NCBI GenBank assembly: GCA_026125795.1
Contig: JAHCKM010000003.1
Span: forward strand, 186,001-250,000
Source: Burkholderiaceae bacterium
GTDB taxonomy: Bacteria > Pseudomonadota > Gammaproteobacteria > Burkholderiales > Burkholderiaceae_C
DNA length: 64,000 nucleotides
Direction of reading: 5' to 3'
The notes beneath the pieces are model-generated. The model worked only from the letters and a program-made list of their open reading frames with translations, was not told the origin of the DNA and made no database searches. Below are positions 1-9,921 of the stretch, piece after piece. Position 1 is the stretch's first letter; the number at the start of each line of letters is the position of its first letter. The translations under genes were made by a program, and so were the position numbers.

Positions 1-2314
1 GGCCGCTCACCGTGTAGATGTTGCCGGTGGCCGGACGCCCGTTCTCGAAGCCGGCCACCTCGGGCACCGGGGGGATGGCGCCGGTGTTGATCAGTTGCGC
101 GCTGGCGCCGATCTGCCAGGTCTGCGTCACCGGACGCGTGACGCCGACCTGAGCCTGCGTCACATACGGCGTCGTGCGCTTGATCTGGTCGCGCAGCTCG
201 GGCACGGTCAGCGGCGGCGGCCCGGTCAGCTTGTCCTGGATGCGGTTGTAGAGCGCGCCCGTCACCGGGTCGGCGAAGGTCAGCGCATTGCCCAGTGCCA
301 GCAGCGTCAGCGCGCGCCGGTCGTACAGCACGTTGAAGACGGTGGCGTCCTCGAGCACCAGCGTGCCTTGCACGGTGGCGATGTTCAGACCCTTGATTGC
401 GGTGTCGTAGTCGAACTGCGAAAAGACCGACGCGCCGCCTTTGAAGTAGCGCATCTCGATGCCGACCGCCTGCCGATCGACCTCGCTGTCGATGCGCTGC
501 TGGATGGCGTACAGGCCGGCACCGAAATTCGGCAGCAGCCCTTCGGCGTCAAGCGACACGCCGGCGAAGCGGCGCCTGGAATCGAAATACTTGTCGGCAG
601 GCATGCCACCGACGGCGCCCAGCTTGATCTTGGGGCGCACCAGGTAGCTTGCTGCCACGCCGTCAAAACGACCCAGCACGCCGCCGCCTTGCGGCGACTG
701 CCGGCCCAGCCGTACCGCGTAGCCATCGGCCAGCGACTTGTAGTCGAAGTACAGCGAAGACAGCCGGTTCTTGCTCTTGTCGCTGCGCTCCAGATCCGTG
801 GTGTACGAGTCGCGCAGGACGAAGCGCATGTCGCGATCGCCGTTGCGCTGGCGCCAGGTGAGGTCAACGTCGTTGAGCAGCTGCCGTGCCTTGTCCGACG
901 AGAGCAGCGGGTCGCCAGCGACCTGCGGCACGCCGGCGACCGCCGAGTCCTTGAAGTCCTGGCTGCGCACCTTGCCGTTTCCGCCGTAGTAGTACATCGA
1001 CACCGAGCCGGTGGTGGTGGTCTCGGTCGGCGGCTTCGGGCGTGCATCGGGTGCCGGCGCGGCCGCGGGCAATGCGGCGAGCTCGCGCCGCACCCGCTCG
1101 CTGCCTTCGCCTCTCGGGTAGAGCTGCAGATAGGTTTCGAACTCGATGCGCGCGCGGGCCACGTCACCCATGCGCGCGCGCGTGACGCCGGCCAGCTCTT
1201 GCGCCGCGCGCGTCTGGCTGTTGGGCGGCAGGTTCAACAGCTCGTTCAGTGCATCCAGCGCGGCCGCATGCTGTCCCTGGGTGAGCGCCGCCTGCGCCGT
1301 GCTGAACAACGCGGCCGCCTTGGTCTCGACCTCGGCGCTGGACAGCACCACCGGCTCGGGTGTTGGCGCCGGCACAGCAACGGACGGCGCTTGCGGTACG
1401 GCAGGCGCCGGAGCCGGTGCTGGCGCGGGCACCGGCGCGGCCATCGGAGGCGCGGGCGGCTGCGTCGCCTGTGCCGCGGGTGCAGGCGCTGCAGCGGTGG
1501 TGGTCTGCGCCGTGGCGACGACGCGCGCCTCCGGAAACGCCGACAACTGACGCAGCGCCGCTTCGGCCTGCGTGCGTGTGGCGAAGTGCCCGAGGTGGAT
1601 CTCGTGGCGCAGCCTGCCGTCGACCACGCGCTGCGCGGTGAACACGTCGTAACTTTGCAGGCCACGCGGAATCATGGTGGTGAGCTGCAGGTTGCGATCG
1701 GCAGACGACTGCAGCACGATCACGAAGCGACGCTCGCCCTCGGGGAGCGTGGCCGGCGTCAACGGCGCCGCCGGCGCCGTTGGCACGCCTGTCGTGGGCT
1801 GCGGCGGCGGTGGTGCTGCCGGAGTCGGTTGCGGCCGCACGGGCGCCGCCCGCAGCGCCGACACGGCGGCGCCGACCCCTTCGAAGACGATCTCGATGCT
1901 GCGGTTGCCGGAGCCGGCGCGCACCGCCACACGGGTGGCGTCGGCCGTGCGCATCACCAGCTTGCGGCCGCGCTCGCCGCGCTCCGGCTCGTCGGCGATC
2001 GACAGTTCCGGCAGCCCTTGCGCACGGCCCAGGCGAAGCGTCTGCGTGGCCCGCACATCGGCATTGGTGGCGTCGACCAGGTTGTAGAAGACCAAGGTCA
2101 GGTCACCCGAGCGCGTGGACACTGCGCGCTGGAACTGCACCTGGTTGGCAAAGCGCAACTGCAGCACGGCGTCGTTGCCTTCGCGACGGATGTCGAACTG
2201 GTCGATCGATTGGGCGAACGAGTGGCTCGCGATGCAGGCGAGCGCCACGGCGCTGCCGATGGGGCGGATGAGGGCGGTTGTCGTTGTTCTCACGTGTGGT
2301 GTTCCGCTGTTCAT
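1..2314 (-). CDS. SPOR/TPR protein with barrel-like C-terminus (partial)
   Basis: The frame stays open from an ATG at 2314 through the window edge, so at least 771 residues are encoded and the C-terminus is missing. A signal peptide ends near residue 39 (SHSFA-QS). A beta-rich AMIN-like N-terminal part and a Pro/Ala linker follow. Around residues 190-255 there is a SPOR-like segment (ERRFVIVLQSS ... HFATRTQAEAAL). After a second Pro/Ala linker comes a TPR-like helical pair near 325-395 (ALFSTAQAALTQGQHAAALDAL). From about residue 430 on, alternating polar/aromatic strands (MYYYGG, LYFDYKSLADGYAVRLGRQ) look like an outer-membrane barrel. It lies 35 bp downstream of two multihaem cytochromes on the same strand, so I infer an outer-membrane partner for them. 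A GTG at 2293 is an alternative start. No specific family is recognised. Confidence 0.75.
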   Translation of the reverse strand, partial: MNSGTPHVRTTTTALIRPIGSAVALACIASHSFAQSIDQFDIRREGNDAVLQLRFANQVQFQRAVSTRSGDLTLVFYNLVDATNADVRATQTLRLGRAQGLPELSIADEPERGERGRKLVMRTADATRVAVRAGSGNRSIEIVFEGVGAAVSALRAAPVRPQPTPAAPPPPQPTTGVPTAPAAPLTPATLPEGERRFVIVLQSSADRNLQLTTMIPRGLQSYDVFTAQRVVDGRLRHEIHLGHFATRTQAEAALRQLSAFPEARVVATAQTTTAAAPAPAAQATQPPAPPMAAPVPAPAPAPAPAVPQAPSVAVPAPTPEPVVLSSAEVETKAAALFSTAQAALTQGQHAAALDALNELLNLPPNSQTRAAQELAGVTRARMGDVARARIEFETYLQLYPRGEGSERVRRELAALPAAAPAPDARPKPPTETTTTGSVSMYYYGGNGKVRSQDFKDSAVAGVPQVAGDPLLSSDKARQLLNDVDLTWRQRNGDRDMRFVLRDSYTTDLERSDKSKNRLSSLYFDYKSLADGYAVRLGRQSPQGGGVLGRFDGVAASYLVRPKIKLGAVGGMPADKYFDSRRRFAGVSLDAEGLLPNFGAGLYAIQQRIDSEVDRQAVGIEMRYFKGGASVFSQFDYDTAIKGLNIATVQGTLVLEDATVFNVLYDRRALTLLALGNALTFADPVTGALYNRIQDKLTGPPPLTVPELRDQIKRTTPYVTQAQVGVTRPVTQTWQIGASAQLINTGAIPPVPEVAGFENGRPATGNIYTVSG

Positions 2315-2349
2315 GGCGAAGCCGATGCTTCGTCGGTGACGCGCTGCGA

Positions 2350-4347
2350 TCAGTCCCAGTTGCGGTAGGCGGTGCCTTTGGTGCCGAGCGGGCGATGGCA
2401 GCCCGACTGCGAGCAGTCGGTGACGCCGGTCGAGCGTTCGTGCGTCAGCGTTTTCTTCTCCATGCTGCCGAGATAGCTGGTGCCGCTCTGGTGGCAGGCC
2501 TTGCACCAGCCGGCGCCGTTGCCCTGGCTGTTGTTGTGGTTCATCGTCACGGAGCCCCAGGACGTGGTGCCCGTGTGGCACGCGTTGCAGTCCATCGCCG
2601 CGCCGTTGAGCAGCTGGATCTCGGGGATGTGGTTGGTCGGCTTGGCCAGCGCGCCCGTGGTGCCTTGTGACACATAGGCGCCGTTGTGGCAGCCCTTGCA
2701 CGACTGCGTCGCGACCACCGTGTGGTTCATCGTCGTCGACGTCGCGAAGCTGGCCTGCGACTTGTGGCACGAGTCGCACTTGGCTGAAGCCGACGTGATC
2801 GGGATGTGCGTGGCCGGCTTGCCCTTGGCCGTGCTGCCGTTGTGGCAGGTGTCGCAGGTGCCGGTGCCCACCGCATTGGCCGGCGAGTGCGCAAACGTGG
2901 CCGAGGCCCAGCTGGTGGTCGAGCGATGGCAGCTTTCGCACGCGCCGGTGATGCCGGTGTGCGTGGCGCTGGCCGGCTTGCCCACCGCGTTGAGGTAGGT
3001 GCCGCCGGGTGTCAACGTGTGGCAGCTGACGCAGCCGGTTCCGATGCTGTGGTAGGTGTGGACCTTGCCGTTGGCCCAGGTGGTGGTGCTGCCGCGATGG
3101 CAGCTGTCGCAGTTGGCGGCGGCAGTGACCGGTACCGTCTGGTACGGCACGTGGTTGGTCGGGCGCCCGTCAGCCGGCGGATAGCCGCCGGTGTGGCAGC
3201 TGGCGCACGCGTTGCTCACGGTCACCTGCGTGTGGTTCCACTTGGTCGGCGTCCAGCCCGCCGGGCTGACGTTGTGGCAGGCGAAGCAGTTGGCCGTGGT
3301 CGGGATGTGCGTGGCCGGCTTGGGCGTGGCGCTGCTGCCGTTGTGGCAGGTGATGCAGTTGGTGGCGGCGGTGAACGTGGCGTGGTCGACGCGCGCGCCG
3401 GCCCATGTGGTGGTGGTCTTGTGACAGCCCTCGCAGTTGCCGGTGACCGTGGCATGCGTCGAGGTGGCGGGTTTGCCCACCGCGCCGAGGTAGCTGCCGC
3501 CGGCACTGCCCGTGTGGCAGCTGGCGCAACCGGTGCTGACGCTCACGTTGGCGTGGAAGCGCCCGTTGGCCCAGGTGGTGACGCTGCCCTTGTGGCAGCT
3601 GTCGCAGCGTGCCGCCGCCGCGGCCGCGACGCTGGCATAGGGCACGTGGTTCGCCGGCTTGCCGCCGGCCGGTGGGTAGGCGCCGCTGTGGCAGCTGTCG
3701 CACTGACCCGCGACCACCATCTGCGTGTGCGTCCACTTGGTCGGACGCCATCCCGCGGGGCTGACGTTGTGGCAGGCGAAACACCCGCTCGCTCCGATCG
3801 GGACGTGCATCGCCGGCCGGCCGGTCGCCGAACTGCCGTTGTGACAGCTGGTGCAGTTGGTCGACGCGTTGAAGGTGCTGTGGTCTGCGGCGATTGCCGG
3901 CGTCCATGCGCTGCTGCGGTGGCAGGTGTCGCAGGACGCCAGCGTGGCGATGTGGCCGCCCGGCTTGCCGCTCGCCGTCAGGCCGTTGTGGCAGGTCTGG
4001 CAGGTGCCCGGCACGACGCCGCTGTGGCTGAAGCGCGCACCGGCGTAGGTCCTGGTGTTGTGGCAGGTGTCGCACGCCGCCTGGGTCGGCACGTGCTGCC
4101 GCGGCCGCACCACGTTGCCGCGCGCAAAGCGGTTGCCCGCCACGTGGCACGACGCGCAGTCGCGCGGCGTGCCTTTGAAGAGCCCGTCGAGGTGGCACGA
4201 TTCGCAGCGCAGCTGCACGTGCGCGCCGGTGAGCGCATAGCCGGTCTTCAAGTGGTCGAAGGGAAGCGTCGTCGTGCCCTGCGCGAACGAGCCTGCGCTG
4301 CCGGCCAACAGGAAGGCGAGCGCGAGCCATCGCATCAGCCGCTTCAT
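2350..4347 (-). CDS. Giant periplasmic multihaem cytochrome c (23 haem motifs)
   Basis: This is a 665-residue secreted cytochrome c. The signal peptide is MKRLMRWLALAFLLAGSAGS-FAQ. I count 22 CXXCH haem motifs plus one CX4CH (CSQSGCH) near the C-terminus. They sit in a repeating pattern of Gly/Ser/Thr-rich modules, in which CHNGSS, KPATHIP, CFACHNVSPAGW and similar strings recur, typical of cytochrome c3-like or doubled-CXXCH proteins. The ATG at 4347 overlaps the stop of the upstream cytochrome gene (ATGA, 4344-4347), indicating translational coupling. I rejected a longer start at 4380 because it puts a charged stretch before the signal peptide. Each haem would be attached in the periplasm by the Ccm system. 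The role is probably long-range electron transfer; substrate and direction cannot be told from sequence. Confidence 0.9.
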   Translation of the reverse strand: MKRLMRWLALAFLLAGSAGSFAQGTTTLPFDHLKTGYALTGAHVQLRCESCHLDGLFKGTPRDCASCHVAGNRFARGNVVRPRQHVPTQAACDTCHNTRTYAGARFSHSGVVPGTCQTCHNGLTASGKPGGHIATLASCDTCHRSSAWTPAIAADHSTFNASTNCTSCHNGSSATGRPAMHVPIGASGCFACHNVSPAGWRPTKWTHTQMVVAGQCDSCHSGAYPPAGGKPANHVPYASVAAAAAARCDSCHKGSVTTWANGRFHANVSVSTGCASCHTGSAGGSYLGAVGKPATSTHATVTGNCEGCHKTTTTWAGARVDHATFTAATNCITCHNGSSATPKPATHIPTTANCFACHNVSPAGWTPTKWNHTQVTVSNACASCHTGGYPPADGRPTNHVPYQTVPVTAAANCDSCHRGSTTTWANGKVHTYHSIGTGCVSCHTLTPGGTYLNAVGKPASATHTGITGACESCHRSTTSWASATFAHSPANAVGTGTCDTCHNGSTAKGKPATHIPITSASAKCDSCHKSQASFATSTTMNHTVVATQSCKGCHNGAYVSQGTTGALAKPTNHIPEIQLLNGAAMDCNACHTGTTSWGSVTMNHNNSQGNGAGWCKACHQSGTSYLGSMEKKTLTHERSTGVTDCSQSGCHRPLGTKGTAYRNWD

Positions 4348-6287
4348 CGCGCCCCCTCGATCGCCAAGCCATCGCGCCACTGCGACAGCAGGCTCGCTTC
4401 ACCCAGCACACGCGCGATGTGCCCGGCGTGGTCAGGCATCCCATGGCCGACGCGCGTGCGCACCTGTTTCCAGCGCTCGGTGACATGGCACTTCTCGCAC
4501 GTGCTGCCAAAGGCGCCGTCGTGCGTGTCGTCGCGCCGGTGGCAGCCCACGCACGCGGTGCCCACCCCCGCCGCCAGCCGGCCGGCCGGCGCGGGCGCCG
4601 TGTGGCAGCGCGCACAGGGCACGTTGCGATGGCCACCGTCGAGCGCATAGCTCGTTCGGCGCGCGTGATCGAAGCTCCAGATGCCCCAGGCGCGCGCGTT
4701 GTGGCAGCTTTCGCAGGCGGTGCCGAAGGCACGCTGGTGCTTGTCGTCGCGCTGATGGCATGCGTAGCACTCGCGCGCGGCGTCGCGGTAGCGTGCGCTC
4801 TTGTGGCAGGCGTCGCACTTGGCGATCGTGTGCTTGCCGAGCAGCGCGAAGCGCGTGCGGGAATGGTCGAAGCGCGGCGCCTTCCAGTCGCGGTCGCCGT
4901 GGCAACTGTCGCATCGCGCGCCGAGCTGGCCCTCGTGCTTGTCATCCTTCCTGTGGCAGGACACGCACTCCATCGGCGTGTCGCGATAGTGCTTGAGATC
5001 GCTGTGGCAGTCCTTGCACTGCACCTTCTTCGCCGCATGCGCGTTGCGAAGCTGGAAGCGCGTCTTCTCGTGGTCGAAGCGCCTGACGTCCTTCCAGTTG
5101 CGTTCGACGTGGCACGAGTCGCATCTCGTTCCCAGCGACGCCTCGTGCCGGTCGTCCTTCTTGTGGCAGCCGATGCAGTCCTTCGGTGCCTCCTTGTAGC
5201 GGGTGCTCGCGTGGCAGTCGGCGCACTTCACGTCGCCGTGCCTGCCCAGCAGCGGAAACTGCGTCTTGTCGTGATCGAACCTGCCTTTCTCCTTCCAGCC
5301 GCTCTCGCTGTGGCAGGAGGCGCAATCGCGGCCCAGGCTGCCCCGGTGGCCCTTGGGACCGTCGTCGTCCTTCCTGTGGCAGTCAATGCAGGCGGTGCCC
5401 AGGTCCTGCTTGTACAGATGCCCGGTGTGGCAGTCGGCGCACTTGATCGCGCGGTGCCTGCCGCGCAACGCGTACTTGGTGTCGCTGTCGTGGTTGAACA
5501 GCGACGGCTTCCAGGCTTTGGCGCCGTGACACGAGTCGCAGCGTTCACCGTACTGGCCTTTGTGACCCTTGGGGCCGTCGTCGTCCTTCTTGTGGCAGCC
5601 GACACATTGCCGCGGTGCCTCCTTGTAGTCGGCGCTTTTGCGGTGGCAATCGGTGCACTTGGCGCCGGCGTGTTTGTCCAGCAGCGGGAAGCGCGTGCGG
5701 CCGTGGTCGAACCGGGCCTTCTCCTTCCAGTCGTTCTCCGTGTGGCAGTCGGCGCATTGAGTGCCGAGCGAGCCCTTGTGCACGTCGTCCTTGCGGTGGC
5801 AGCTGTTGCAGTCCGACGGCGCCGCGCGATGTTTCTTGGCCGGCAGGTGGCACTTGTCGCATTCGACGCGTGCGTGCCTGCCGCGCAGCGCAAAGTCGGT
5901 CATCGCATGGTCGAAGCGCATGTCGTCGAGCTCGACGATGCGCGCGTTGCGGCCCTTGTGATCGGTGTGGCAGCTGCGGCAGGTCGGCGCCTTCAGCCGT
6001 CCGTGGTAGCCGGTGCGCTCACGCACGTCTTGCCCCACTTCCTTGTGGCAGTCGGTGCACAGGCGGTCTTGCGCCGCGCGATCGAAGCGCACATGGCACT
6101 TGGAGCAGTCCTCCTCCCACTTGGCATGGCCGTGCCAAAGATCGCCCGGGCGCAGGACCGACTCGATCGTCTGGGCCGGCGTCGCCGCAAGCCACGACAG
6201 CAGCAGGCAGGCGAGCAGCCAGCGGATCGGCGCCAGGAAATACGAGGCTGCGCATGGGGTCCGTTCGCATGCGAACTCAGTACGCAT
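4344..6287 (-). CDS. Giant periplasmic multihaem cytochrome c (24 haem motifs)
   Basis: This 647-residue secreted cytochrome has 24 CXXCH motifs. They lie in tandem modules of about 75-80 residues with the pattern RFDH...T.F.L.G.H....C..CH....YK.AP..C..CH.KDD.H.G.LG..C..CH....WK, so each module carries about three haems plus extra His residues for axial ligation. The hydrophobic segment WLLACLLLSWLAATPAQ is the signal peptide. The start ATG at 6287 overlaps the end of the cytochrome b gene by 11 bp, and the stop overlaps the next cytochrome by ATGA. Its Lys/Asp/His-rich composition contrasts with the Gly/Thr-rich downstream cytochrome, so the two are distinct proteins rather than duplicates. 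I infer that it accepts electrons from the membrane cytochrome b encoded immediately upstream. Confidence 0.9.
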   Translation of the reverse strand: MRTEFACERTPCAASYFLAPIRWLLACLLLSWLAATPAQTIESVLRPGDLWHGHAKWEEDCSKCHVRFDRAAQDRLCTDCHKEVGQDVRERTGYHGRLKAPTCRSCHTDHKGRNARIVELDDMRFDHAMTDFALRGRHARVECDKCHLPAKKHRAAPSDCNSCHRKDDVHKGSLGTQCADCHTENDWKEKARFDHGRTRFPLLDKHAGAKCTDCHRKSADYKEAPRQCVGCHKKDDDGPKGHKGQYGERCDSCHGAKAWKPSLFNHDSDTKYALRGRHRAIKCADCHTGHLYKQDLGTACIDCHRKDDDGPKGHRGSLGRDCASCHSESGWKEKGRFDHDKTQFPLLGRHGDVKCADCHASTRYKEAPKDCIGCHKKDDRHEASLGTRCDSCHVERNWKDVRRFDHEKTRFQLRNAHAAKKVQCKDCHSDLKHYRDTPMECVSCHRKDDKHEGQLGARCDSCHGDRDWKAPRFDHSRTRFALLGKHTIAKCDACHKSARYRDAARECYACHQRDDKHQRAFGTACESCHNARAWGIWSFDHARRTSYALDGGHRNVPCARCHTAPAPAGRLAAGVGTACVGCHRRDDTHDGAFGSTCEKCHVTERWKQVRTRVGHGMPDHAGHIARVLGEASLLSQWRDGLAIEGAR

Positions 6288-7317
6288 GCACGGCGACCAC
6301 GTGCACCACCGCACTGATGACCAACAGGTAGATGAACGGCAGGTGCGCCATGTGCCACAGCGCGAACACACGTTCGTAGGCGCTGTACTGGGCCACGCGA
6401 ACGACCGCGTTCAAGTACTGGTCGACCAGCCGGCGCGCCCGACGCTGGCGCCGTCGCAGCTCGACCGCTTCCCAGCCGTGCTGCCGTGCCAGCTGGTGCA
6501 ACGGCTGGCGCAGGTCGCGCACGCACCGCAGGTGGGTGATCCACTGCTGAATCGGCAGCAGCGCGACATGGCTCAGGTGCGTCGTCCATTCGGGGTGCGC
6601 CTGCAGCACGCGCCGCTCGAACGTCTGGAGGCGGTCCTCAACCGCCGGACAGAAGTGCAGGCGCGAACGCGCAGTGTCTTCGACCAGGCCGGCGCGACGG
6701 CGCAGCTCGTCCAGCGACGTGCGTTCGCCGTGCAGCCCGCGATGGATGCGCACGTAGATGAAGCGGCCGACGACGCCGCTGACCACCACGATGCACATGC
6801 TGATCAGCGCGACACCGGCGTTGACCGATCCGATGCGGAACTGCGAGTGAATCAAAATCAACCAGGGCCCGCTGATGCCCAACGCCAGATGGGCCCAGAA
6901 CCAGACCTTGACCTTGCCCCAGCCCTGCATGAAGCGCGCGTACTTGCGCAGCGGGTAGACGAACAGCGCCAGCATGAACGAGCCGCCAACCACGCCGATC
7001 CAGTAGCTGGTGTCGTCGTTGCGCTGGAGCAGCCCCATTTCGCCGATCTGCCACGCGGCTCCCACCAGGGCGGCCAGCAGCAAATACAGCAGCAGGTCGC
7101 CGCGGCCGACATGGCTGTCAACCGCCTGGCGCGGCGGCACGGTCGCATCGAGCTCGGGTCCGCGCGGCGACGCCTCGTCGTGCTGCGTGCGCCGCGCATC
7201 GCGCTCGGCGCGTGGCGCTGCGGCCGAGGGTGGTGTTCGCCGGCGTGGACGGACCGTCTCGTCCAACGCGACGGCTTGCGCGGTTTCGGTCAAGGGTTGG
7301 CTGGTCATGGGAGTCAT
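6277..7317 (-). CDS. Two-haem cytochrome b-type membrane protein
   Basis: The protein has about 346 residues. A charged N-terminal tail of some 70 residues precedes five hydrophobic segments. One helix carries WAHLALGISGPWLILIH and the last carries AHLPFIYLLVISAVVH. Each contains His-X13-His, the spacing that holds two b haems between two helices in NarI/b561-like cytochromes. A cytoplasmic or periplasmic loop of roughly 110 residues lies between helices four and five. It is the first gene of the minus-strand cluster and overlaps the 24-haem cytochrome, so a quinol-oxidising (or quinone-reducing) module feeding periplasmic cytochromes is the natural reading. No flavin or Fe-S subunit is encoded here. 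The start is uncertain: a GTG at 7332 or ATGs at 7317 or 7308 are all in frame, with no clear ribosome binding site. Confidence 0.75.
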   Translation of the reverse strand: MTPMTSQPLTETAQAVALDETVRPRRRTPPSAAAPRAERDARRTQHDEASPRGPELDATVPPRQAVDSHVGRGDLLLYLLLAALVGAAWQIGEMGLLQRNDDTSYWIGVVGGSFMLALFVYPLRKYARFMQGWGKVKVWFWAHLALGISGPWLILIHSQFRIGSVNAGVALISMCIVVVSGVVGRFIYVRIHRGLHGERTSLDELRRRAGLVEDTARSRLHFCPAVEDRLQTFERRVLQAHPEWTTHLSHVALLPIQQWITHLRCVRDLRQPLHQLARQHGWEAVELRRRQRRARRLVDQYLNAVVRVAQYSAYERVFALWHMAHLPFIYLLVISAVVHVVAVHAY

Positions 7318-7871
7318 GGAGGCCGCATGCACGGTTTCGGGCCATGCCGCGGCATCAGCGGAAGGCGCCTGGTGGTCTCTGAAGCGGAGTTCCCCTTCGC
7401 GCAGTTGTTGTTTCGGGCGGCGCTTGCACTGGCGCGATCAAGCCGCTCGCTCAGCTCATGGACAGTGGTTCGAGCATTTCCCCCCAACCTGAAGCCCAGA
7501 TGAGCCGCCGTTCGCACGTTGTGACGAACTGCACTTCGCGACGGTTGCCGTGCCCGCGTGCGGGATACAGAAGGTGACGATGCTGAAGCGGCTGCTGGCT
7601 GGTTCGGTTACCGCGCCGGCAAGACGCGACCACCGCGCGCGCATGGCGCGGTTCGTGCCGACCTCACCCTGCGGCGGTCGTGTTGCTTGACTGAGCATCT
7701 GCATGCCCTCCCAACGAGTTGTGCAAGTTGCACAAGTTCAATGTAGCATCGGCACCTGAGCGGAATCCGCGCTTGTTTGTCGAGTCGTAACGGCAACGGC
7801 ACTCGAATGCGGGTTCGCGATGGATGCATGAGACCGATGGCGAAACCGATCGCCCGATTGCAGCGACGCAC
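7318..7871. other. Divergent intergenic region, no convincing gene
   Basis: About 550 bp separate the cytochrome b gene (minus) from the DUF6502 gene (plus). Short frames exist on both strands, but none has a start with a ribosome binding site or a recognisable product. The only clear structure is a perfect palindrome at 7719-7735. The stretch presumably holds promoters for both flanking units. Confidence 0.5.
7719..7735. promoter_or_regulatory. Perfect 8+1+8 inverted repeat, operator-like
   Basis: TTGTGCAA-G-TTGCACAA is a perfect dyad with 8-bp arms and a one-base centre, in the AT-richest part of the divergent region. It lies about 150 bp upstream of the chosen DUF6502 start. The size and symmetry fit a dimeric transcription factor site. 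The regulator is unknown. Confidence 0.45.
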
Positions 7872-8726
7872 ATGGCGCGAAAGAACTCCGGCACACCGAC
7901 GGAACCAATCGATACAGCGCTCGGTGACGCGCTGGAGATGCTGTTGTCGCCGGTCGCGCGCCTGTGTCTGGCGCGCGGCTTGACCTTTGCCACGGCAGTG
8001 GAGTCGCTCAAGCATGCATATGTCGGCGCTGCTCGCGAGGCTCACGCGGGTCGTCACGGCACGCGAGACATCGCGCGCGTCAGTGCCGCGACGGGCATCT
8101 CGCGGCGCGAGGTGACCCGCGTCAGCAATGAATTGGTGGCGCCCTCGGTGGTGCGCGGCTCACCGGCCACCAAGGTGTTCACGCGCTGGATCGGCAGCGC
8201 CAAGCTGCGCGATCGCAACGGGCGCCCCAAGCCGCTGCGGCGGCACGGCGCCGCACCCAGCTTCGAAGCACTGTCCTATTCGGTGACGCACGACATCCAC
8301 CCGACGGTCATCCTCGACGAGCTGTGCCGCCTGGGCTTGGCGCGCCACGACGGCGACACCGGGCTGGTCCACTTGCTGCGCGACGCCTTCGCGCCGCATG
8401 AGGACCAGGGGCGCGCGCTGGCCTTCCTCGGCAGCAACGTGGGCGATCATCTCGCCGCCGCCGTGGACAACGTGCTGGCTGACAAGCCCTCGCACCTCGA
8501 GCAGGCGATCTTCGCCGACGAACTTTCACTGGACTCCGTGGCGCAGATCCGTTCACTCGTCGCAGCCCATTGGCGTTCGATGCTGTCCGAATTCGTTCCC
8601 AAGCTCGAGGCATTGATCGAGGCCGACAAGGCGGCCGGCAGGCGCGCGCGGCAGCGCGTGCGCATCGGGCTGTACAGCTTCCACACCAACATGCCCGACA
8701 TCACCGATTCCTCCGAGAAAGACTGA
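7872..8726 (+). CDS. DUF6502 family protein
   Basis: This cytosolic protein of about 284 residues is of unknown function. The N-terminal helical segment (ALGDALEMLLSPVARLCLARGLTFATAVESLKHAYVGAA) followed by a helix-turn-helix-like stretch (RDIARVSAATGISRREVTRV) is characteristic of DUF6502 proteins and suggests a winged-helix DNA-binding fold. The C-terminal half is mostly helical. The stop is one base before the next ATG, so it is co-transcribed with the DUF5666 lipoprotein, a pairing I recall from other betaproteobacteria. An earlier in-frame ATG at 7824 would add 16 residues. Neither start has a good ribosome binding site, so the choice is tentative. Confidence 0.7.
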   Translation: MARKNSGTPTEPIDTALGDALEMLLSPVARLCLARGLTFATAVESLKHAYVGAAREAHAGRHGTRDIARVSAATGISRREVTRVSNELVAPSVVRGSPATKVFTRWIGSAKLRDRNGRPKPLRRHGAAPSFEALSYSVTHDIHPTVILDELCRLGLARHDGDTGLVHLLRDAFAPHEDQGRALAFLGSNVGDHLAAAVDNVLADKPSHLEQAIFADELSLDSVAQIRSLVAAHWRSMLSEFVPKLEALIEADKAAGRRARQRVRIGLYSFHTNMPDITDSSEKD

Positions 8727-8727
8727 C

Positions 8728-9921
8728 ATGGTTGCCGACCGGACCCTGCGCGCCGCGCGTCGAATGTTCATGGTTCTGCGGCTGCTGTTGCCGGCCGCGC
8801 TGATCGGCTGCGGCGGCGTGGACAGCGGCGGCACCGGTGCGTCGCTCGGCTACGGACCAATCACCGGGCTTGGCTCGATCATCGTCAACGGCGTGCGCTT
8901 CGACGAAAGCAACGCGACCATCACCGATGAAGACGGTCTGGCGGTGGCACGCGAGCGGCTCCAGCTGGGCGTGATGACCAGCGTCGAGGCGTCGGCCATC
9001 ACTGGGCCGGCCGGCGATCGGCGCGCTACGGCACACCGCGTGCGCCTCTTCAGCGAGCTGATCGGCCCGATCGGGGCGATCGATTCGACCGCGCAGACCA
9101 TCGAGGTGCTGCAACAGCCGGTCCGCATCACGCCGGCGACGGTGTTCGGCGACGGACTTTCTTCAGGCCTGGCAAGCCTGCAAGCCGGCATGGTGGTCGA
9201 GGTCTTCGCCCAGCTCGACAGCGAGAGCGGCCGCTATGCGGCCAGCCGCGTCGAGCTGCGCTCCGCTGCAGCGTCCTATTCGGTGCGCGGTACGGTCGGG
9301 CAGGTCGATGCCGGAGCACGAACGTTCACGCTCGGGGCGCTGGTTGTGGACTACTCGCAGGTCTCCGCAAGCGACGCCGCCCGGGCGGTGGCAGGCGCCC
9401 AAGTTCGCGTGCGGTTGCAGACGTCGCCCACCGGCGCAGGGACCTGGCGCGCCACCTCGGTGTCGTCCGGGCAGCGGTCGATCGCCGATGCCGACGAGGC
9501 ACACATCGAAGGGCGCGTCTCCGCGTTGGAGTCGGCGCAGCGCTTCAGCATCGACGGGGTCCCGATCGACGCGAGCGCCGCCGCGTTCCCCGACGGAACC
9601 GGCGCGATCGTGCTTGGCGCGCGTGTCAGCGTCGAGGGCTCGGCGCGCGGCGGCGTGGTCTTTGCCAAGGAGGTCCATGTCGAGGGCGAGGAGGACGGGT
9701 CGAACTCGACCTATGAGGTGCATGGAACCGTCCAATCGCTCGATGCAGCCGCCAGGACAATGGTCGTGCGCGGCCTTGCGATCGACTTTTCAGGCACCGT
9801 CAGGTTCGAGAACGGAACGGTCGATGACCTGCGCGTCGGGCGGTCGGTCGAGGTCGAGGCCGTTCTGCAGCCCGATGGCGTCGGCTTGATCGCACGCAAG
9901 ATATCGTTCGAGGGAAGCTGA
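8728..9921 (+). CDS. DUF5666 repeat lipoprotein
   Basis: This is a 397-residue lipoprotein. The lipobox L-I-G-C places the acylated cysteine at residue 28. The mature part consists of repeated beta modules of about 70 residues (VRGTVGQVDAGARTFTLGAL, VHGTVQSLDAAARTMVVRGL, with GM.VEV or GR.VEVEA motifs), the pattern of DUF5666 OB-like domains. It starts one base after the DUF6502 stop. Function is unknown. Location in the outer membrane, facing the periplasm or the exterior, is inferred only from the lipobox. Confidence 0.8.
   Translation: MVADRTLRAARRMFMVLRLLLPAALIGCGGVDSGGTGASLGYGPITGLGSIIVNGVRFDESNATITDEDGLAVARERLQLGVMTSVEASAITGPAGDRRATAHRVRLFSELIGPIGAIDSTAQTIEVLQQPVRITPATVFGDGLSSGLASLQAGMVVEVFAQLDSESGRYAASRVELRSAAASYSVRGTVGQVDAGARTFTLGALVVDYSQVSASDAARAVAGAQVRVRLQTSPTGAGTWRATSVSSGQRSIADADEAHIEGRVSALESAQRFSIDGVPIDASAAAFPDGTGAIVLGARVSVEGSARGGVVFAKEVHVEGEEDGSNSTYEVHGTVQSLDAAARTMVVRGLAIDFSGTVRFENGTVDDLRVGRSVEVEAVLQPDGVGLIARKISFEGS

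Follow-up and report, generated by a model that had tools for sequence, protein, structure and literature searches.

A four-gene cluster at one edge of the window (the whole stretch of 64,000 nucleotides of Burkholderiaceae DNA analyzed here) probably encodes a PCC3-type trans-envelope electron conduit, and the operon for cytochrome c maturation (ccm) comes directly after it. In gene order, motifs, and haem density, the four genes match PCC3, a predicted conduit that was named in 2017 (He et al. 2017, PMC5566968) and is not itself new. The new point is that PCC3 often lies directly in front of haem-attachment (ccm) genes. The conduit reading draws on gene order and content as in PCC3, invariant haem-b histidines and SGXXG, haem density, and a barrel prediction, as well as on the constant haem number of the first multihaem cytochrome (MHC1), the ccm linkage, and the co-occurrence with CcmF. 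The features are as follows:

6277..7317, minus strand: IMP, a helical inner-membrane protein of 346 aa with two WX3HX13H motifs and SGXXG
4344..6287, minus strand: MHC1, 647 aa, 24 CXXCH, signal-peptide-like start, eight tri-haem units
2350..4347, minus strand: MHC2, 665 aa, 22 CXXCH plus a terminal CX4CH (23 haems)
1..2314, minus strand: porin, N-terminal 771 of 897 aa inside the window
1859..2215, minus strand: porin N-terminal beta domain, without credible Pfam match, from the AlphaFold2 model of the homologue L098
1511..1741, minus strand: porin SPOR segment of the peptidoglycan-binding type, found in 19 of 26 aligned porins
1079..1324, minus strand: porin TPR region (aa 331-412), from Pfam and the L098 model
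7824..8726, plus strand: DUF6502 gene, divergent from IMP with 506 bp between
8728..9921, plus strand: DUF5666 gene, lipobox-like start (read by eye)

The four minus-strand genes (IMP, MHC1, MHC2, porin) are tightly spaced, much as the sequence-only reading had described them: the reading frames of IMP and MHC1 share 11 bp, those of MHC1 and MHC2 share 4 bp, and a gap of 35 bp separates MHC2 from the porin start (2314). The porin gene leaves the window. Extension past position 1, which that reading had proposed, completes it from the genome to 897 aa, with its end at G000:C3:185621, 380 bp past the edge, and its last 38 bp within the ccmA reading frame as listed. The PCC3 gene set (IMP, periplasmic-type MHC, extracellular-type MHC, porin) is complete here, and the order matches that of Slit_1446-1449 in Sideroxydans ES-1 (IMP, 24 haems, 28 haems, porin), as given in the portion of the literature covered. 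The parts covered of the PCC3 descriptions (PMC5566968; for Gallionellaceae, PMC10734462) share with our locus the IMP and its motifs, two MHCs, a porin, and the haem density.

Relatives were compared in three sets. A single scan for IMP relatives yielded 470 coding stretches, of which 80 were fetched (the named loci); 77 of these 80 have an MHC1-like gene with at least 12 haem motifs. The published PCC3 members of ES-1 and L. cholodnii do not figure among the 80. The order and family sets comprise 16 and 15 loci. Because the sets share contigs (L108/L139, L066/L147, L059/L150, and others), their counts are not additive. Weaker IMP matches were not taken as PCC3 (three family genomes at E ~1e-13; 22 order genomes at E 7e-11 to 8e-4). 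Of the 80 named loci, 17 also carry a homologue of the DUF6502 gene and 10 carry one of the DUF5666 gene, these 10 all being among the 17. In two congeners the island is missing at the corresponding site, and the missing stretch includes both of these genes.

The IMP of PCC3 was defined as a protein of ~300 aa with five TM helices, SGXXG on TM4, and WX3HX13H on TM3 and TM5 (PMC5566968). The window copy has 346 aa, both motifs, and five hydrophobic regions (hydropathy windows, merged by hand), and the two helices with His-X13-His noted earlier stand, with HX13H at aa 143 and aa 325. The haem-b His and SGXXG columns are invariant in 17 of 17 aligned sequences, including the window copy; in a 20-row alignment the last His is conserved in at least 90%, and the remaining motif positions are invariant. 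The predicted structure is all-helical, and the protein probably binds two haems b and exchanges electrons with quinone. Its assignment as NarI/b561-type was dropped because no NarI, cytochrome b561, or ferric reductase domain family matched (Pfam E<=1, NCBIfam E<=0.1); the motifs agree with the published definition of the PCC3 IMP, a protein that its authors compared with the ferric reductase domain (PMC5566968). The model gave no convincing match among known folds, nor the alignment a credible one by sequence among solved structures. PCC4 has an IMP with identical two HX13H motifs, plus a porin, but unlike PCC3 its MHCs number three (with 4, 5, and 10 haems), and none of them is extracellular (PMC5566968).

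The 24 and 23 haem-binding motifs originally counted proved to be far beyond chance: shuffled sequences have on average 0.3 (MHC1, 2000 shuffles) and 0.2 (MHC2), and at most 3 in either case. Both proteins have signal-peptide-like starts, and MHC1 matches Pfam Cytochrome_C7 (1.3e-26). At 27.0 (MHC1) and 28.9 (MHC2, 665/23) residues per haem, both fall within the range of 22-39 given for PCC3 cytochromes, which have large haem numbers (PMC5566968). By homology to PCC3, MHC1 is predicted to be periplasmic and MHC2 extracellular.

The two cytochromes vary in very different ways. MHC1 is quantized in tri-haem units (haem spacings ~33-17-18): complete frames in the named set carry 24 haems in 68 of 73 cases, 27 in two, and 21 in one, and across all sets 24 in 96 of 105, 27 in five, and 21 in one. 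Two frames with 13 haems (one split gene present in two sets) and one with three look like fragments. Periplasmic MHCs of 21, 24, or 27 haems also appear in the parts covered of the PCC3 papers (PMC5566968, PMC10734462). For MHC2, the haem number ranges from 11 to 71 across relatives (58 frames; one 4-haem frame was excluded as a fragment, and other low counts possibly reflect split or masked genes), with a conserved di-haem head, a usually conserved tail, and a variable middle.

The porin had been described as having a signal peptide, SPOR-like and TPR-like parts, and a barrel-like C-terminus, and each of these can be recognized. It has a signal-peptide-like start, and its final residue is Phe. 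The best Pfam TPR match is TPR_9 (7.9e-6, 26.2 bits, below the cut-off of 35). SPOR did not match at E<=1 in Pfam when the whole protein was searched; the segment alone from the window copy matches PF05036 at 0.0096 (16.7 bits against a cut-off of 21). Of the 19 segments aligned, 15 reach E<=1, the best of them 2.5e-6. The suggested structure prediction was made through L098, a full-length homologue that is 59% identical. In its AlphaFold2 model, an N-terminal beta domain is followed by SPOR, TPR, and 22 strands of 8-20 residues, and among the 50 PDB matches listed for the model, 49 are named outer-membrane barrel proteins and one is an artificial metalloprotein. The porin C-terminus is thus predicted to be an outer-membrane beta-barrel, as in PCC3. 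Sequence comparison with solved structures found mainly TPR proteins for the porin alignment, nothing credible for the N-terminal domain, and, for the SPOR segments, SPOR proteins (1x60, E 0.43; 2lfv, E 0.69) behind unrelated chains.

Both the anatomy of the locus and its conservation speak for the proposed path between quinol and the outside (in either direction) unlike MtrCAB, but its composition was already known as PCC3. A periplasmic cytochrome, a barrel, and an outer cytochrome are common to MtrCAB/MtoAB and our locus. The differences are 24 + 23 haems instead of 10 + 10, a cytochrome b of its own where MtrCAB uses CymA, a barrel without MtrB family match, and an MHC2 signal region in which we found no lipobox Cys. 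It could be argued that the locus is a divergent MtrCAB, with the barrel an MtrB and MHC2 an MtrA by descent. MHC2 does match the DmsE-family decahaem model TIGR03508 (2.9e-21) and PDB chain 6r2q_A (2.7e-7), which we take to be MtrA of the solved MtrCAB complex (the match table gives another molecule name). However, the TIGR03508 scores (76 bits for MHC2, 28 for MHC1) are far below the cut-off of 192, the haem numbers are not those of a decahaem MtrA-type cytochrome, and MtrB_PioB did not match the porin at E<=1 (Pfam). In addition, the source genome has a separate MtrB-family gene (1.7e-154) with cytochrome neighbors elsewhere. We consider this descent very improbable. MHC1 matched no solved structure by sequence at 0.001.

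A second alternative is that the cytochromes store electrons in the periplasm and at the surface, buffering the quinone pool like a capacitor, with the barrel serving for export or anchoring. Haem density is indeed very high, and a store was also suggested for PCC3 in the part covered of PMC10734462. A store alone, however, needs neither a fixed MHC1 length and a variable MHC2 nor a barrel, and of the 16 order-sample loci, 13 have a barrel gene beside the cytochromes, two break off at a contig end before one could appear, and in one (L047) no porin was found. We therefore regard a store as improbable.

Compared with PCC3 as published, what differs here is a porin with SPOR and TPR parts whose gene overlaps ccmA. 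The words ccm, maturation, biogenesis, TPR, and tetratricopeptide are absent from the text covered of PMC5566968, where "spor" occurs only within an author name. The ccmA in question begins a ccmABCDEFGHI operon that holds the genome's sole CcmF; with no ResB found at E<=1e-20, this operon must also serve the genome's other cytochromes c, and the idea that it is dedicated to PCC3 was dropped for the source genome. Once loci with an incomplete porin or less than 400 bp beyond it are set aside (53 of 80 named, 3 of 16 order-sample, and 7 of 15 family-sample loci), a ccm gene is found next to the porin in 21 of the remaining 27 named loci, in 8 of 13 from the order sample, and in 8 of 8 from the family sample. 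The calls use bit thresholds that we set, and CcmI was confirmed by Pfam in seven linked genes. A chance of 9e-44 for 21 of 27, which assumes nine ccm genes in 5500, three following genes, and independence, is not relied on. The linkage takes several forms, starting at ccmA, starting at ccmF, or consisting of CcmI alone. It is not required, given that the porin lacks a ccm neighbor in 6 of the 27 named loci and in 5 of the 13 from the order sample; in L098 and L104 the next gene encodes an Fe-S/FAD pyridine-nucleotide oxidoreductase (Pfam), and in L121 it looks alike (by eye).

CcmF also co-occurs with PCC3 at the genome level. It is present in 15 of 15 PCC3-positive versus 79 of 205 PCC3-negative genomes of the family (220 genomes; Fisher p 1.4e-6, ignoring shared ancestry) and in 17 of 17 versus 167 of 283 in the order sample (p 1.8e-4, likewise ignoring shared ancestry); a weak match in G216 (3e-8) was counted. 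Neither the porin-ccm adjacency and CcmF co-occurrence, nor MHC1 tri-haem quantization with an MHC2 range of 11-71, nor the absence of the island at this site in two congeners was found in open-licence papers.

The linkage might nevertheless be mere neighborhood, an island that lies beside a resident housekeeping operon without a functional tie to it, a reading compatible with the conduit itself. The operon looks resident, as it holds the sole CcmF and its region is 73-84% identical in DNA to the ccm of two congeners without PCC3 at the corresponding site; within the window's family, the CcmI tree mixes linked with operon copies, and for this family the idea of one clade specific to PCC3 was given up. 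However, the linkage recurs in several forms, and in three genomes (G405, G435, G451) CcmF is linked to PCC3 although System II is also present, the linked copy being the only CcmF in G405 and G451. (In G504, ccmABC alone is linked and CcmF is distant.) Outside the window's family, moreover, linked and operon CcmI fall on separate branches in 7 of 7 same-genome pairs, with the caveat that shortness and a TPR-only makeup may draw several of the linked copies together. On balance, we find mere neighborhood unlikely, but less so than the other two alternatives.

There are partial precedents, in the parts of the papers covered. The mtrCAB genes are adjoined by complete ccmA-I in six genomes and partial sets in two (PMC8805035). 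The SirG/SirE pair of Shewanella likewise places a second CcmI-type chaperone gene beside its cytochrome; SirA has an atypical haem site, whereas PCC3 has ordinary motifs in unusual number (PMC6976685).

In the conduit as we picture it, the IMP would exchange electrons between the quinone pool and its two haems b, and MHC1, a fixed chain of eight tri-haem units, would carry them across the periplasm. The porin would form a 22-strand sheath in the outer membrane, tethered to peptidoglycan via SPOR, and its TPR perhaps docks a cytochrome. MHC2 would begin in or at the barrel and extend outside, to a species-dependent length. Flow could run either way. The downstream ccm genes would attach the 47 haems of MHC1 and MHC2, and where a lone CcmI-like gene comes after the porin, its product probably serves these long cytochromes as an apocytochrome chaperone. 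We found no demonstration of electron flow for PCC3 in the portions of the papers covered. In Sideroxydans ES-1, both PCC3 clusters are downregulated on Fe(II) (PMC8788666), and in a proteome one extracellular PCC3 cytochrome was undetected and the periplasmic one low (PMC12016527), so that, from the parts of these papers covered, a PCC3 role in Fe(II) oxidation is unsupported there.

IMP relatives occur in 470 stretches, yet PCC3 function is a prediction in the parts of the papers covered. The fixed 24-haem wire raises the question of whether a periplasmic cytochrome can act as a length ruler, the ccm linkage that of whether System II can mature proteins of 20 to 70 haems, and the linked CcmI paralogue that of specificity for long PCC3 cytochromes. 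The linked ccm and CcmI genes are natural partners for producing these cytochromes in a laboratory host. Tentatively, and with somewhat less than even confidence, we suggest that PCC3 may be a portable ruler-and-sheath machine with a haem supply of its own, either brought along or captured: The 24-haem wire would match the periplasm, the SPOR-tethered barrel would be the exit, and the elastic outer wire would set the reach, with System I, be it entire, partial, or represented by a CcmI chaperone lineage specific to PCC3, required for such long cytochromes, such that PCC3 would not persist in cells with System II only.

The four genes that open the window on the minus strand form the tight row described in the sequence-only reading, with two overlaps (11 and 4 bp) and one 35-bp gap at their junctions. 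Extending the sequence past position 1, the check proposed there, located the end of the last gene 380 bp outside the window. In the source genome (6.57 Mb, six contigs), the window spans G000:C3:186001-250000, and window position w corresponds to position w+10000 of locus L003. The features are as follows.

7317-6277, minus strand: predicted inner-membrane protein (IMP), WX3HX13H twice and SGXXG
6287-4344, minus strand: cytochrome c MHC1, 24 haem motifs
4347-2350, minus strand: cytochrome c MHC2, 22 CXXCH and one CX4CH
2314 to 380 bp past the window edge, minus strand: outer-membrane barrel protein (porin)
3' of the porin, minus strand: ccmA, B, C, D, E, F, G, H and I (CcmD and CcmH assigned from position and sequence appearance only)
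9943 to about 10983: patatin-like phospholipase gene, direct neighbor of ccmA in congeners G392 and G491

The haem counts of 24 and 23 held up (shuffled MHC1 and MHC2 sequences gave at most three CXXCH-type motifs), as did the two His-X13-His helices of the cytochrome b, which are the two WX3HX13H copies of the IMP and, like SGXXG, are invariant in 17/17 aligned sequences. The same four genes, IMP motifs and haem density appear in the PCC3 definition of He et al. (2017; PMC5566968, text available in part), and it is close to certain that this cluster is PCC3. Of the proposal of a conduit unlike MtrCAB, the quinone-linked conduit stands as likely, but the composition was already published. Sections of PMC8788666 and PMC12016527 give Slit_1446-1449 of ES-1 as IMP, 24 haems, 28 haems and porin, and in the portions available PMC10734462, PMC12442390 and PMC13386937 still treat PCC3 as a predicted complex. 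Expression data excerpted from PMC8788666 argue against PCC3 taking part in Fe(II) oxidation in ES-1. Sideroxydans CL21 shows above-mean expression of its two copies (PMC12442390, in part).

MHC1 is built from tri-haem units (CXXCH spacings ~33-17-18), and among 105 complete reading frames it has 24 haems in 96, 27 in five and 21 in one, the other three being probable fragments (68/73 frames have 24 haems in the named set of 80 IMP-related loci alone). These counts agree with the 21, 24 and 27 haems given for Gallionellaceae PCC3 in the available part of PMC10734462. MHC2 ranges from 11 to 71 haems over 57 complete frames (13 to 53 in 33 named-set frames), with, by pattern, the di-haem head kept in 54 and the tail with its terminal CX4CH motif in 40. 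The simplest reading is that MHC1 is a fixed inner wire and MHC2 an elastic outer one.

Behind the porin, whose stop codon falls within the ccmA frame, lies a ccm operon with the only CcmF of the source genome, in which a search for ResB at E≤1e-20 gave no match. Among relatives, 27 of the 80 named loci could be evaluated (porin complete, with 400 bp or more past it); a ccm gene comes next in 21 of these (from ccmA in 14, from ccmF in two, CcmI alone in five) and none does in six. The same adjacency occurs in 8/13 order-sample loci (one of the five unlinked, L035, has CcmI divergently upstream) and in all eight evaluable loci of 15 in the family sample; these samples share contigs, so the counts are not additive. 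At two loci without ccm, the gene directly 3' of the porin (L098:17806-19098; L104:17277-18578) encodes a 4Fe-4S/FAD pyridine-nucleotide oxidoreductase whose N-terminus is hydrophobic and which may connect the conduit with NAD(P)H.

Across 220 family genomes, a strong IMP match (E below 1e-80) defined 15 as PCC3 positive, including the source genome. CcmF, the System I marker, is in 15/15 of these versus 79/205 of the others, and ResB, the System II marker, in 6/15 versus 165/205; in the order sample, CcmF is in 17/17 PCC3 genomes versus 167/283 others (all uncorrected for shared ancestry). Three genomes (G405, G435 and G451) carry CcmF inside the PCC3 cluster despite having System II, and in three others with ResB (G306, G422 and G447) CcmF is distant or on another contig. 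At one further locus (L142, genome G504), ccmABC alone is linked to PCC3 and CcmF is megabases away.

Placement of ccm genes next to an electron conduit has been described before: the accessible part of PMC8805035 reports ccmA-I adjoining mtrCAB (complete in six genomes, partial in two), with System II elsewhere in four of those genomes. The PCC3 case, for which no published report was found in the open-licence literature covered, extends that pattern. The pattern that ties PCC3 to ccm has good support, but its functional meaning is unproved.

Seven linked CcmI genes were confirmed by Pfam, four of them lacking the C-terminal Ig-like domain. In a tree, linked and ccm-operon copies fall on different branches in seven genomes having both (after the porin in G243, G182, G236, G028 and G023; divergently upstream in G135 and G295). 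The linked copies of six unite at a node with support 0.90; that of G023 groups with the linked copy of G070 (support 1.00). SirG, as described in part of PMC6976685, is a precedent for a CcmI-type chaperone serving one cytochrome.

G392 and G491, where ccmA adjoins the patatin gene, lack the segment between about -385 and about 9970 (G392) or 10130 (G491) and have 167 and 372 bp, respectively, in its place; the DNA on either side aligns in blocks of 67-86%. A search at E≤1e-10 detected no IMP in these two genomes (the G491 assembly is 85% complete). The missing stretch comprises porin, MHC2, MHC1, IMP and divergent DUF6502 and DUF5666 genes, and the comparison is compatible with either gain or loss of an island at this site, without distinguishing them. 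The divergent DUF pair (7824-9921) recurs in PCC3 loci, with DUF6502 homologues in 17/80 and DUF5666 homologues in 10/80 named loci; our guess is a regulator and a lipoprotein. In the literature searched, four papers mention DUF5666, and no mention of DUF6502 was found there.

The window cluster is ordinary in kind and useful in detail, and PCC3 may carry electrons in either direction. Elsewhere, the source genome (G000) encodes a second conduit (L155, G000:C1:1586000-1597500), an MtrB-family gene with neighbors read from translations only as CymA-, MtrC- and MtrA-like, and a RuBisCO large-subunit family match (G000:C4:812532-813455, outside the window) that also fits RuBisCO-like proteins. 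Because of these two loci, it is plausible that this organism exchanges electrons with the outside.
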